Shown: piece by piece, positions 42,247-48,290 of the stretch
Numbering within the stretch: position 1 is the stretch's first letter
How the letters are laid out: each line of letters opens with the position of its first letter
From: Planctomycetota bacterium
GTDB lineage: Bacteria > Planctomycetota > UBA1135 > JADKAF01
Length of the DNA: 64,000 nt
Assembly: GCA_016793245.1 (NCBI GenBank)
Contig: JAEUHW010000012.1
Span: forward strand, 1 to 64,000
Direction of reading: 5' to 3'
Made by a program: the position numbers and the translations under genes
The notes under the pieces: model-generated
Seen by the model: the letters and a program-made list of their open reading frames with translations, nothing else
Databases searched by the model: none
What the model was told of the DNA's origin: nothing

Positions 42247-45200
42247 TCAGGTCGCGATCGAGACCGCGAGACGAATCGTCTCGCCTTCGATCGCGACCTC
42301 GCGAGCGCCCGCGCCGGGATCGGCCACCACGTCCAAGCGCCGCGACAGCGTCTCCGCGGCGATGAGCTCGCGGTGCGCAGCGATCGCCGCGGCGAGCTTC
42401 TCGCTGGCCGTGAGCGCTACCTCGATGCGCGCGACGTAGTCGAGGCGGAGGTCCTTCCGCACCGCCTGGATGCGGTTCACGAGCTCGCGCGCGAGCATCT
42501 CGGCGATGAGCGCTTCATCGACCTCGGTCTCCAGCAGCACCACGGCCTGCGTCCCCGACGCCGCGGCGAAGCCCGGCTTCGCCTCCAGCGCGACCTCGAT
42601 CTCCGCGGGGGTCAGCTCGACGCGCTCCCCGCTCGCGACGAGGATCTCGCACGCGCCGCGGCGCGTGAGCTCCTCGCGCAAGCGCGCCGGGTCCGCTTTC
42701 ATCACCGCGTCCTTCACGAGCGGCATCAGCTTGCCGACCTTCGGCCCGAGCGCTTTGAAGTTCGGCTTGCAGGTGTAGCTCACCCAGGTCGACGCATCCG
42801 CGACCAGATCGACCAGCTTCACGTTGAGCTCGTCGGCGATGACACCGCAGAGACCTGCCAGCGCGGCGCGCAGCTCGGCGTCCGCGACGGCGACGCGCGC
42901 GGAGCGCAGCGGCTGACGCACCTTCAAGCGCGCGTCCGAGCGGACGCTGAGCCCGAGGGAGACGATCTCGCGAGCGGCGGCCATGCGCCGCGAGAGCCCT
43001 TCGTCGATGAAGCGCGCATCGACCTCGGGATAGCTCGAGAGATGCACCGAGCTCGGTGCGCGGGCGCCGAGCGGTCGCACGACGAGGTTCTGGTGGAGCT
43101 CCTCGGCGAAGAACGGCGTGAACGGCGCGATCGCGCGCGCGAAGGTCGCGAGGCAGGTGTGCAGCGTATCGAACGCCGCGAGCTTGTCCGCGGACTGGCC
43201 CTCCGACCAGAAGCGCGCGCGCGAGCGCCGCACGTACCAGTTGGAGAGCGAATCCACGAAGCGCCCGAGGCGCTGCGCCGCCTCGTAGAGCCGCCAGCCG
43301 TCCATGTGCGCGCGCACGTCGCGCACGGTCAGATGCAGCTCCGAGAGGATCCAACGATCCATCTCGCCGCGCTCCGCGAGGGGCTCCAAGGCGCTGCGCC
43401 GCGCGGGGTCGTAGCCGTCGATGTTCGCGTAGATCACGAAGAACGAGTAGACGTTCTGCAGCGTGATCAGGAAGTCCTTCTGCGCCTGGCGCACGCCGGC
43501 CAGCGAGTGACGCGTGTTGTTCCACGGCGGGTTCGACGCGTAGAAGAACCAGCGGAACGCGTCACCGCCGGGTGCCGGCGTCGGATCGACGAAGGTCGCG
43601 ACATCGCCGCTCTTCGCACCCAGCTCCGCGGCCTGCTCCGAGGAGAGCACGGCGATGTGGCGATGATCGTTCCCCCCGCCGGCCGCGACCCAACGCTCGG
43701 CCTTGTCCAAGTCGAGCGGCTGCAGCTCGCGCAGCACTTTGCCGCCGAGCTCGAGCTGCACGCGGCAGTCCTTGCGCTGCAAGTCGAGGCCCTCGAGATC
43801 GTCGCGCGTGAGCCCGAGCTGGCCCCGCTGCGGCGCCTTCTTCGCGAGCAGCTCCTGGAAGCGCGCATCGCCCGCGACGACGATCGTCATCGGCATGCGC
43901 ACGGCCGAGAGGATGACACTGGGCGGCGTGTAGTTCTTCTTGCTCTTCGACTCCTTGATCCCGTCGCGGTCGCAGACGTGCCCGAGCACGATGCAGCGCT
44001 TGTAGGGATGGGGATAGCTCTCGCCGCGGAGCCCGTAGCGCTCGCGCGTCTCGCGATCGAAGACCAGCGTCGAGACCGCCAGCATGGAGTAGAACCAGCC
44101 GCGCGTCTGGTCGACGGCCTCGGAGATGAAGTCCGCGGGGAACGCCTCGCGGAACGCCTCGACGCCGCTGTGCGGGAAGCCGAACTGCGCGAACGGCACG
44201 CAGCCGGAGTCGAACCAGCAGTCGATGACTTCGGGCACGCGCCGATAGGTGCCGCGTTCCCCGGGCTTCGTCCAGGTGATCTCGTCGATCCACGGCTTGT
44301 GGACCTTCAGGTGCTCGTTCAGCGCGGGATCGGCCGCGCGCGCCGCTTCGAACTTGTCGAAGGCGCGCGGGTTCCGCTGCAGGATCTCGGCGACCGAGGT
44401 CGGGCAGTCCATCGCCCCCGTCTCGTCGTTCACCCAGATGTTGAGCGGCGTCCCCCAGAAGCGCTCGCGCGAGAGCGCCCAATCGACGTTGTTCGCGAGG
44501 AAGTCGCCGAAGCGCCCTTCCTTGATGTGCTCGGGGAACCACTCGATCGCGCGGTTGTTCGCGACGAGCTCTTCCTTGAACTGCCGCGTGCGGATGAACC
44601 AGCTCTCGCGCGCGTACTGGATCAGCGGGTCCTTATCGGCGCGCGGGCAGAACGGATAGTCGTGCGCGATGATCTCCTTCGCGAAGAGGAGACCGCGCTG
44701 CTCCAGGTCCTTCAGGATCTGCGGATCGGCCTCCTTGAAGCCGAGGCCCGCGAAGGGCTCCGCCACCGGCGGGAAGACGCCGCTCGGGGTGAGGTGCTGT
44801 ACGAAGCCGAGGTCCGCTTCCTTCGCCGTGCGATAGTCGTCCTCGCCGAAGCCGGGTGCGATGTGCACGATGCCCGTGCCGGTGCCGGTGGTCACGAAGT
44901 CGCCGGCGACGACGCGCCAGGGATCTCCGGAGGCGGGCTTCTCGAACGCGTAGGGCGGCGTGTAGCGGAGCCCCACGAGCTCCGCGCCGCGGCGCTGCTC
45001 CACGACGCGATGCGCGCGCTTGCCGAAGAGGCGCTCCACGCTCTCGGCGGCGACGACGTAGCGCCGGCCGGGTTCCTCCTCGAGCTCGACCAGCGCGTAC
45101 GCGATGTCCGCGCCCACCGCGAGCCCCAGGTTCGACGGCAGCGTCCACGGCGTCGTCGTCCAGGCGAGGAAGACGAGGCCGTCCTTCTCCGCCGGGAAGC

Positions 45201-45837
45201 GCACCGTCGCAGCCGGATCGTTCACCTTCTTGTAGCCCTCGCCGACCTCGCCGGCGGAGAGCGCGGTGCCGCCCTTCGTCCACCACCACACGACCTTGTG
45301 GCCGCGGTAGAGCAGGCCCTTCGCGAAGAGCCGCGAGAGCGCCCACCACACCGATTCGATGTACGGCGTGTGATAGGTGACGTAGGCCTGCGGGAGATCG
45401 ATCCAGAACGCGATGCGCTCGGTCAGCCGCTCCCACTCGCTGGTGTAGCGGAAGACGTTCTCGATGCAGCGCCGCGTGAACGGCTCGACGCCGTACTCGA
45501 GGATCGCCTCGCGGCCGCGGATGCCGAGCTCCTTCTCGACCTCGATCTCGACCGGCAAGCCGTGCGTGTCCCAGCCGGCCTTCCGCGGCACGTAGTCGCC
45601 GCACATCGTGCGATAGCGAGGGAAGAGATCCTTGATCGCGCGCGTGAGCACGTGCCCGTTGTGGGGCATGCCGTTCGCGGTCGGCGGGCCTTCGTAGAAG
45701 ACGAAGCGCTGTCCACCTCGGGTGCGCCCCTGCTCCAAGCTCTGCTCGAAGATGCGCTCGCGCTTCCAGAAGGCGAGGACCTTCTCCTCCAGAGCGGGGA
45801 AGTCGTAAGTGGTGTCGACCGGCTCGAAGACGCCCAT
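42247..45837 (-). CDS. ileS: Isoleucyl-tRNA synthetase with a large insertion
   Basis: Encodes 1196 residues. Charges tRNA-Ile and edits valine. The HIGH motif reads HNGH (59-62). The CP1 editing domain is present (LAWTTTPWTLPSNLGLAVG; GIVHIAPGFGEDDY). The KMSKS loop reads KESKS (628-632) in DGIKESKSKKNYTPP. Between this loop and the usual GADAxR segment (here GGDAFRWFFY, 757-766) there are about 120 residues where most IleS have about 10, an insertion of some 110 residues. The C-terminal anticodon-binding region is complete, in the long eukaryote-like layout. Starts at ATG 45837 with GAGG 4 nt upstream. Confidence 0.95.
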   Translation of the reverse strand: MGVFEPVDTTYDFPALEEKVLAFWKRERIFEQSLEQGRTRGGQRFVFYEGPPTANGMPHNGHVLTRAIKDLFPRYRTMCGDYVPRKAGWDTHGLPVEIEVEKELGIRGREAILEYGVEPFTRRCIENVFRYTSEWERLTERIAFWIDLPQAYVTYHTPYIESVWWALSRLFAKGLLYRGHKVVWWWTKGGTALSAGEVGEGYKKVNDPAATVRFPAEKDGLVFLAWTTTPWTLPSNLGLAVGADIAYALVELEEEPGRRYVVAAESVERLFGKRAHRVVEQRRGAELVGLRYTPPYAFEKPASGDPWRVVAGDFVTTGTGTGIVHIAPGFGEDDYRTAKEADLGFVQHLTPSGVFPPVAEPFAGLGFKEADPQILKDLEQRGLLFAKEIIAHDYPFCPRADKDPLIQYARESWFIRTRQFKEELVANNRAIEWFPEHIKEGRFGDFLANNVDWALSRERFWGTPLNIWVNDETGAMDCPTSVAEILQRNPRAFDKFEAARAADPALNEHLKVHKPWIDEITWTKPGERGTYRRVPEVIDCWFDSGCVPFAQFGFPHSGVEAFREAFPADFISEAVDQTRGWFYSMLAVSTLVFDRETRERYGLRGESYPHPYKRCIVLGHVCDRDGIKESKSKKNYTPPSVILSAVRMPMTIVVAGDARFQELLAKKAPQRGQLGLTRDDLEGLDLQRKDCRVQLELGGKVLRELQPLDLDKAERWVAAGGGNDHRHIAVLSSEQAAELGAKSGDVATFVDPTPAPGGDAFRWFFYASNPPWNNTRHSLAGVRQAQKDFLITLQNVYSFFVIYANIDGYDPARRSALEPLAERGEMDRWILSELHLTVRDVRAHMDGWRLYEAAQRLGRFVDSLSNWYVRRSRARFWSEGQSADKLAAFDTLHTCLATFARAIAPFTPFFAEELHQNLVVRPLGARAPSSVHLSSYPEVDARFIDEGLSRRMAAAREIVSLGLSVRSDARLKVRQPLRSARVAVADAELRAALAGLCGVIADELNVKLVDLVADASTWVSYTCKPNFKALGPKVGKLMPLVKDAVMKADPARLREELTRRGACEILVASGERVELTPAEIEVALEAKPGFAAASGTQAVVLLETEVDEALIAEMLARELVNRIQAVRKDLRLDYVARIEVALTASEKLAAAIAAHRELIAAETLSRRLDVVADPGAGAREVAIEGETIRLAVSIAT

Positions 45838-48032: not shown

Positions 48033-48105
48033 TCGGGGAAGCGGGATTCGAACCCGCGACGCTCAGCTCCCAAAGCTGAGGCTCTACCAACTGAGCTACT
48101 CCCCG
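48033..48105 (-). tRNA. tRNA-Pro (anticodon TGG)
   Basis: Read on the minus strand, it folds as a 73-nt cloverleaf: acceptor CGGGGAG with TTCCCCG (last pair G-U), D arm GCTC/GAGC, anticodon stem TCAGC/GCTGA with loop TTTGGGA (anticodon TGG, reading CCA), T arm GCGGG/CCCGC with TTCGAAT. C1-G72 and A73 fit proline identity. CCA is not encoded. Divergent from tRNA-Arg. Confidence 0.95.
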
Positions 48106-48216: not shown

Positions 48217-48290
48217 GCGCCCGTAGCTCAGCCGGATAGAGCATCGGATTTCTAATCCGACGGTCGCTGGTTCGAATCCAGCCGGGCGTA
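48217..48290 (+). tRNA. tRNA-Arg (anticodon TCT)
   Basis: A 74-nt cloverleaf: acceptor GCGCCCG with CGGGCGT (first pair G-U), D arm GCTC/GAGC, anticodon stem TCGGA/TCCGA with loop TTTCTAA (anticodon TCT, reading AGA), T arm GCTGG/CCAGC with TTCGAAT, discriminator A. CCA is not encoded. Confidence 0.95.

Follow-up and report, generated by a model that had tools for sequence, protein, structure and literature searches.

What is a stretch of approximately 110 extra residues, lying directly beside the catalytic loop of an isoleucyl-tRNA synthetase (IleRS), and what might it do there? The question is raised by the ileS gene of a Planctomycetota bacterium (GTDB lineage UBA1135; JADKAF01), found in a 64,000 nucleotide stretch of DNA (assembly GCA_016793245.1, contig JAEUHW010000012.1, positions 1 to 64,000, here called the window). 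The explanation that we favor overall, with a probability of roughly 0.5, is that a double-psi beta-barrel (DPBB) domain sits within an IleRS2-type body whose two class I signature motifs both depart from the standard form, and that the barrel would help to support the catalytic loop.

An insertion next to the catalytic loop of IleS

The ileS reading frame extends from 42247 to 45837 on the minus strand and encodes 1196 residues. The product scored 786.1 bits (785 in a second scan) with the isoleucyl-tRNA synthetase model TIGR00392, above the cut-off of 621.4, and ileS is the sole gene above the IleS cut-off in its own genome, which is 89.6% complete. The features needed for what follows are:

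42247..45837, minus strand: ileS, isoleucine--tRNA ligase of the IleRS2 type, 1196 residues (reading frame, family models, tree, fold match)
45652..45663, minus strand: HNGH, residues 59-62, the altered class I HIGH motif of the clade described below (sequence, alignment)
43942..43956, minus strand: KESKS, residues 628-632, the altered KMSKS loop, in which Glu replaces Met (sequence, alignment)
43927..43929, minus strand: Thr637, eight residues past Glu629 (alignment)
43573..43905, minus strand: predicted inserted DPBB domain, residues 645-755 (in the window, model and fold match; in relatives, Pfam matches and alignment of the halves)
43747..43905, minus strand: predicted first beta-(alpha)-beta-alpha-beta half of the barrel, residues 645-697 (secondary structure in the window, half-to-half alignment in relatives)
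43576..43740, minus strand: predicted second half of the barrel, residues 700-754 (same evidence)

The insertion beside the catalytic loop is genuine. Compared with clade members that lack it (boundaries were placed with the insert-less reference L177, NYTPPDAILESDGADAMRW), the extra stretch comprises residues 645-755, about 111 residues at 43573-43905, in agreement with the first-pass annotation of this DNA, which had noted an insertion of about 110 residues between KMSKS and the GADAxR segment at 43560-43960. It follows the KESKS loop and precedes GGDAFRW. In the Pfam layout the class I catalytic domain reaches residue 644 and the anticodon domain starts at 827, followed by a C-terminal DUF5915 domain, and the insert falls between the first two in a stretch without Pfam assignment. 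A phmmer alignment with the P. megaterium IleRS2 leaps from residue 640 to 755 with nothing between, and in all 29 of the order-mates that were read the loop runs straight into the G-x-D-x-x-R segment. A genome scan confirmed 215 relatives, of which the best 80 were kept, and similar inserts were found at the same point in all 80. The reading frame is open throughout the insert, the G+C content and the G+C content at third codon positions resemble those of the rest of ileS, and relatives have inserts at the same site; chance, an intein or a frameshift as the origin of the insert was rejected on these grounds.

The insert is predicted to fold as a double-psi beta-barrel

Structure prediction, which had been proposed as a check on the insertion, produced a confident DPBB. 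The insert region was aligned with 74 relatives and modeled with AlphaFold2. For a stretch of 141 residues the mean predicted local distance difference test score (pLDDT) was 87.5, with ten-residue blocks from 21 to 120, inside the insert, at 88-98 and the two edge blocks at 78 and 84, and for the full protein the mean pLDDT was 93.6 and the predicted template modeling score 0.89, with blocks from 641 to 760 at 88-97. In the full-length model the elements follow the order strand-helix-strand-helix-strand two times, in residues 645-697 and again in 700-754. A Foldseek search of the PDB placed Ufd1 first (E value 1.8e-4), followed by designed DPBBs, a VCP-like DPBB and aspartate decarboxylase. 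With VIA-align, the p97 N domain (5epp_A) gave a Z score of 10.8 and a root-mean-square deviation (rmsd) of 2.2 over 86 aligned residues, and the designed DPBB 7di0_A gave 10.7 and 2.5 with 88 of 88 residues aligned, so that the predicted model of the window insert matches solved DPBBs at Z scores up to 10.8.

Two further lines of evidence are independent of structure prediction, and both were obtained on relatives. When profiles were made of the two halves of 30 short-form inserts, one half could be aligned to the other across 41 columns (probability 89.3, E value 2.1e-6), and none of 60 column-shuffled controls reached this score (best shuffle 13.2 versus 27.5 for the real alignment). The two-fold beta-beta-alpha-beta repeat is thus present in the window insert by secondary structure of the model and in 30 short-form relatives by profile. 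The Pfam family Molydop_binding was matched at an E value of 1 or less by 14 of 59 long inserts (best 2.1e-6) and 8 of 24 short ones (best 4.2e-6), the individual rows that were seen being weak (0.0095-0.17). CDC48_N was matched by six of the 59 long inserts (best 0.036) and by L202 at 8.7e-5, with 23.1 bits against a cut-off of 35.1 bits. We take Molydop_binding and CDC48_N to be DPBB families. MazE_antitoxin, presumably a related barrel type, weakly matched four of six L202-type inserts (0.014-0.099). Long and short inserts are homologous to each other (hhalign probability 95.8, E value 7.5e-9). A sequence search of the PDB gave no match to the insert alone or to a profile with its flanks. 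Since the fold prediction, the fold match and the internal duplication in relatives agree, there is very little doubt, as far as a predicted model can tell, that the insert is a DPBB domain. The window insert shares this fold with the N domain of CDC48/p97, Ufd1, aspartate decarboxylase and Molydop_binding, and its relatives share the two-fold internal repeat with the DPBB families, some of them with weak sequence matches as well; it differs from them in that here the barrel is inserted in a tRNA synthetase.

These fold matches are the basis for one alternative, namely that the barrel is a docking module that binds a partner protein, as the barrels of CDC48/p97 N and Ufd1 do. The nearest solved folds, besides designed DPBBs, are indeed the N domains of p97/CDC48, PEX1 and Ufd1, and the long form of the insert is acidic. 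A fold says nothing of function, however, and the likeness to p97 is a likeness to other DPBBs as well, so we regard docking as improbable.

The charge of the inserts bears on a second alternative. The net charge of long inserts has a median of -3 and is zero or less in 58 of 59, and that of short inserts has a median of 0, with 10 of 24 positive. In class Ia enzymes the side formed by the catalytic loop and the SC-fold faces the tRNA, and the insert adjoins both, so that the barrel could be a direct platform that makes contact with tRNA(Ile) and adjusts charging or editing. The LS domain of leucyl-tRNA synthetase (LeuRS) is described as mattering for tRNA binding (PMC5059758), which speaks for such a platform. 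Against it stands the charge, since a single long insert of the 59 is net positive and the short ones center on zero. The mostly non-basic long inserts mildly favor contact with the enzyme body over contact with the tRNA backbone, and we consider a tRNA platform rather doubtful.

Altered signature motifs define a clade

The canonical HIGH and KMSKS motifs have a hydrophobic second residue; the window enzyme instead has HNGH and KESKS, with the His and Lys positions kept. The reading KESKS, already given in the first-pass annotation, holds at residues 628-632. In an alignment of 148 rows, Glu occupies the position of the KMSKS Met in 112 rows, which we call the clade (112 of 112), and in none of the 36 others, where the residue is Met in 28 and Leu in 8. 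Thr is found eight residues past this Glu in 110 of 112 clade rows as compared to one of the 36 others (L143). HNG is present at the HIGH motif in all 110 clade rows that are readable there, and Asn at its second position is absent from the 36 non-clade rows. Three clade members (L081, L096 and L103) read HNGS in place of HNGH, a change of the second His to Ser that is unexpected for a catalytic residue. A further difference lies at residues 184-189, WWWTKG in the window enzyme, where Trp184, Trp186 and Gly189 are present in 97%, 100% and 100% of clade rows, respectively; in the 12 insert-less order-mates of the alignment residue 184 is Pro and residue 186 is Cys or Ser.

The 148-row set excludes 16 rows in all, namely repeats (L010, L040, L041, L058, L059, L193 and L194), L064 because its frame is broken, L126 because its frame is too long, and fragments (L095, L109, L135, L176, L180, L195 and L198); six partial rows were retained, and L202 to L207 came after the count and lie outside it. 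Clade rows were gathered by patterns or profiles that contain HNGH, KESKS, PG[AG]DAFRW or the insert, so the co-occurrence of these features is in part a product of how the rows were gathered. A pattern for HNGH makes the fairest test, because it holds no information on the loop. This pattern rang in 80 genomes, of which 50 were read as far as the loop, and all 50 had KESK, 45 with an insert and five without; the remaining genomes comprise 25 unread, four unreadable to the loop and one place that is not IleS.

An insert is present in 107 of the 112 clade rows, in its long form in 79 and its short form in 28, and is absent from five. A strict coupling of KESKS and insert, initially a candidate, was broken by the motif search, which recovered KESK without insert in L177-179 and L196-197. 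Since these five members have KESK without insert, the altered motifs and the insert are separable. Two of them, L196 and L197 (genomes G375 and G322, of the phylum of the window), have HNGH with KESKR, and may be near the state before the barrel arrived. The HNG/KESK rows form one clade with a Shimodaira-Hasegawa-like approximate likelihood ratio test (SH-aLRT) value of 100 in both of two trees, which had 44 and 47 rows (hand-chosen rows plus rows passing a 62% identity filter) and were quick trees made under one protein model with the insert columns removed. The identity of the earliest-branching insert-less lineage shifted once L202, L204 and L206 were added. A tree in which all 28 insert-bearing rows were forced into one clade was not rejected (approximately unbiased test, p-AU 0.49) and is as good as the free tree, so that on these sequences the insert may have been gained once, after the change of motifs, or else early, with later losses.

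The insert-less members support the main rival to a role for the barrel, that it is a structural ornament in a tolerant surface loop, retained by drift and without consequence for catalysis. The variable length of the inserts (105-127 residues in the long set and 80-92 in the short set) and the few near-invariant positions in the insert alignments fit this as well. Drift accords less well with the retention of the insert in 107 of 112 clade rows, over several phyla and long branches, and with the finding that all inserts read occupy one and the same site next to the catalytic loop. We judge the ornament to be somewhat unlikely.

Relationship to other IleRS enzymes

The closest fold to the full-length model is the P. 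megaterium IleRS2, with a Z score of 44.5 and an rmsd of 7.3 over 1026 aligned residues for 8c8u, and 42.2 and 4.8 over 963 for 8c8v. In the tree the clade of the window groups with L140-L143 and the order-mates, apart from the IleRS1 of E. coli and Myxococcus, with an SH-aLRT of 100, a placement made with few references and no archaeal or eukaryotic rows. The P. megaterium enzyme (PDB 8c8u/8c8v; PMC10485003) and the window enzyme share the overall fold and are both of the HXGH type. The window enzyme differs in having HNGH without a hydrophobic second residue, KESKS in place of KMSKS, and an additional 111-residue predicted DPBB between the loop and the next helix. The NCBIfam models of MupA and MupB, which are IleRS2-type enzymes as is the window IleS, matched the window protein with 791.5 and 743.6 bits, far below the cut-off of 1900, and have 1024 and 1033 positions as compared to its 1196 residues.

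Distribution of the clade among bacteria

The titles of the 80 kept loci are mostly Myxococcota (Myxococcales, Polyangiaceae and related groups) or Deltaproteobacteria; a small number name Planctomycetota, Acidobacteria, Bryobacterales, Gammaproteobacteria and Geobacter. All 80 have KESK with an insert. Four phyla were searched with the HNGH pattern, which tolerates no mismatch and misses variants with another residue; as a control, the reversed pattern was matched by 2 of 235, 4 of 392, 1 of 247 and 1 of 249 genomes. Of the 235 genomes from the phylum of Sorangium (G418), 61 have the pattern, 46 match the insert profile, and 62 show one or both. Of the 46 profile matches, 19 were read, giving 17 short and two long inserts, and the 16 genomes added by the pattern gave 11 short inserts, three without and two cut off. 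In the phylum of the window the pattern rang in 11 of 392 genomes: six with the long insert, including the window, two with none, two unreadable to the loop and one that is not IleS. The phylum of G435, a Bryobacterales metagenome-assembled genome (MAG), gave 7 of 247, with a long insert in G435 and KESKS with a short insert in the other six, and the phylum of G432 gave 1 of 249, G432 itself. One pattern place each in G390 and G625 is not IleS, and L176, L180, L195 and L198 run off a contig end or are unreadable to the loop.

The first-pass annotation had taken a common occurrence of the insertion in many phyla, with no functional change, as what would refute its reading. As far as the sampling goes this is not the case: the insert does occur in several phyla, but in three of the four sampled it is infrequent. 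The suggestion that it may be a lineage marker holds in part, as it marks most of the HNGH/KESKS IleRS clade but not the order of the window. The scattered presence of the clade in the phylum of the window and that of the Bryobacterales MAG is probably due to transfer.

G432 (L080), a MAG of 2.8 Mb titled Gammaproteobacteria, has three IleS genes above the cut-off and is possibly a mixed bin; two of the three genes align with the family model over its whole length as a single piece. A search of the phylum of the window with the single insert sequence matched 18 of 392 genomes at an E value of 0.01 or less, and of these matches only the ones in G000, G085 and G109 are IleS; the search overlooked G173, G216 and G241, which the motif search recovered. 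The other loci of that search (L042-L057) have no IleS loop in any frame of more than 300 residues, and the matched frames that were seen look unrelated or spurious. No relative was confirmed in the viral contigs searched. Among plasmids, 200 records match the whole protein, of which 40 were listed, each in two pieces covering 87-93%, and the ones read (L140-L143) have no insert.

Origin of the window gene

The insert was matched in none of 20 order-mates searched, and all 29 order-mates read, in a search that spanned 60, have KMSK or KLSK and no insert. The window IleS is 60% identical to L060 and L061 of the same phylum, and its identity to the 12 order-mates that were aligned is 36-42%. PurL, encoded 3.3 kb from ileS, is closest to order-mates instead, its top five matches being of the same order at 54-56% identity, with 23 genomes matched. 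Because PurL resembles its order and IleS does not, we conclude that the contig belongs to its genome and that the synthetase was, going by these identities, most likely acquired from outside the order. An artefact, by mis-assembly or by binning of a contig from another genome, might be suspected in a draft genome of 458 contigs whose order-mates, where read, lack such an IleS. It is extremely unlikely given the affinity of PurL just 3.3 kb away, on which mis-binning was rejected, and the homologous genes in many independent assemblies that include complete chromosomes.

Evidence for a housekeeping function

Of the 80 loci, 25 bearers were picked by hand and tested, and in 20 of these the clade enzyme is the sole IleS above the cut-off, three complete Sorangium chromosomes being among the 20. 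In those bearers it must charge tRNA(Ile), because it is the sole IleS there, and it thus appears, from gene content, to be the working housekeeping IleRS in most bearers tested. Four Myxococcaceae genomes also hold an ordinary IleRS1-like gene, and G432 has its three IleS. The complete chromosome of Minicystis rosea (L064) has a single IleS above the cut-off in two frames, with the break after the insert, perhaps a sequencing error.

This gene content bears on the idea of an antibiotic-driven change, in which the HNGH/KESKS loop, perhaps along with the barrel, protects against an IleRS inhibitor. The additional IleRS1-like gene in the four Myxococcaceae is in its favor, and pairing of IleRS1 with IleRS2 is known in other bacteria (PMC10485003). 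AgnB2, a LeuRS immune to TM84 (PMC5059758), likewise speaks for it, with a polar residue at the same place of the loop and Thr at the same offset of eight. The sole-IleS bearers speak against it, as no spare enzyme exists there, and we find it quite unlikely.

A possible role in supporting the catalytic loop

In class I synthetases the KMSKS loop opens and closes during catalysis and its Met makes hydrophobic contacts. The predicted barrel interrupts the catalytic body of a synthetase that is otherwise a complete IleRS2-type enzyme, coming after the loop that corresponds to KMSKS and before the next helix, where it might pack against the mobile loop and restrain or support its open-closed motion, in a manner comparable to the unrelated LS domain of LeuRS. 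Within the loop, Glu629 and Thr637 may make a polar contact like that of Gln573 and Thr581 in AgnB2, which would shift the resting position of the loop. In AgnB2 the loop Met is replaced by Gln, which bonds to a Thr eight residues on where other LeuRSs are hydrophobic, with a shift of the loop as a whole; in other LeuRSs it is the LS domain that is said to buttress the KMSKS loop (PMC5059758). The window enzyme resembles AgnB2 in having a polar residue for the Met and Thr for the hydrophobic residue at +8, and differs in that AgnB2 has Gln rather than Glu, lacks an LS domain, and is a self-immunity enzyme and not the sole housekeeping one. The LS domain resembles the insert as an accessory domain of a class Ia enzyme that adjoins the KMSKS loop and is absent in some members (PMC6588880, PMC5059758). 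It differs in lying before the loop and in being judged a deteriorated zinc ribbon (PMC6588880), the window insert being placed after the loop and predicted to be a DPBB; the insert is thus neither before KMSKS nor zinc-ribbon-like, as an LS domain would be.

We favor a loop-supporting role because the same two positions are altered as in AgnB2 and an accessory domain stands directly behind the loop; by this analogy it is the likeliest of the mechanisms, at somewhat short of an even chance, with the structural ornament as its main rival. Several points weigh against our overall explanation. The half-to-half profile test covers the inserts of relatives and not the halves of the window insert, which itself, in a further difference from the DPBB families, matches no Pfam family. 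Relatives also weakly match unrelated families (Tudor_KDM3B in 2 of 59, best 0.0012; DUF7407 in 1 of 24, 0.003), other Pfam families matching one or two inserts each with a best E value of 0.0012. The inserts vary widely in length and sequence, which would also suit an ornament. Because the five insert-less members (L177-179, L196-197) keep HNGH and KESK, the altered loop does not need the barrel. The contact of barrel and loop and that of Glu629 and Thr637 are ones that we infer. The parallel with the LeuRS LS domain, which precedes the loop and has another fold, is one of position only, and reversion of Gln573 in AgnB2, by itself, gave no rise in sensitivity (PMC5059758).

A bolder proposal is that the clade is a distinct functional form of IleRS whose catalytic loop would be kept in another resting state by a polar Glu629-Thr637 latch, with the barrel as its support, and that this would confer on predatory, antibiotic-rich myxobacteria an intrinsic immunity to IleRS-directed natural products, convergent with AgnB2. 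We think this improbable.

Mupirocin and the open literature

The first-pass annotation had raised altered tRNA handling or mupirocin sensitivity as possible effects of the insertion. The IleRS2 type is already weakly sensitive to mupirocin (PMC10485003, PMC4861432), so the insert is unneeded to explain low sensitivity. The mupirocin tail in IleRS2 sits in the cleft between both motifs (PMC10485003), and an acidic residue there could weaken binding further, but IleRS2 enzymes are resistant without one.

A search of the open literature, subscription papers and preprints aside, found no description of a tRNA synthetase with KESKS or HNGH or of a Sorangium isoleucyl-tRNA synthetase, and among the open papers listed on IleRS2, mupirocin, the LS domain and DPBB insertions, none dealt with the clade by title or the start of the abstract. 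A survey of 379 IleRS sequences calls the second residue of HXGH hydrophobic, and the available part of its text has no word beginning "Myxo". The clade is therefore undescribed as far as the searched open literature goes. In the available part of AARS Online, DPBB is not among the domain superfamilies shared by at least two aminoacyl-tRNA synthetase families (PMC11580382, table 2). That resource assigns sequences to different families when an indel of 50 residues or more sets them apart, and the available part of its table lists one IleRS family (PMC11580382); by this rule the clade is a candidate for a family of its own. HIGH and KMSKS are textbook motifs in much-studied enzymes, and a housekeeping clade altered in both, with such a domain added, is a natural experiment on the catalytic loop. 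It could also bear on IleRS-targeting antibiotics in myxobacteria.

Other features of the gene and its surroundings

Two further features of the synthetase are:

45130..45162, minus strand: WTTTPWTLPSN, residues 226-236, an intact Thr-rich stretch of the editing domain (sequence)
42259..42843, minus strand: C-terminal DUF5915 domain, residues 999-1193 (Pfam)

Elsewhere in the window, tRNA-Pro(TGG) at 48033-48105 on the minus strand and tRNA-Arg(TCT) at 48217-48290 on the plus strand lie on opposite strands 111 bases apart.

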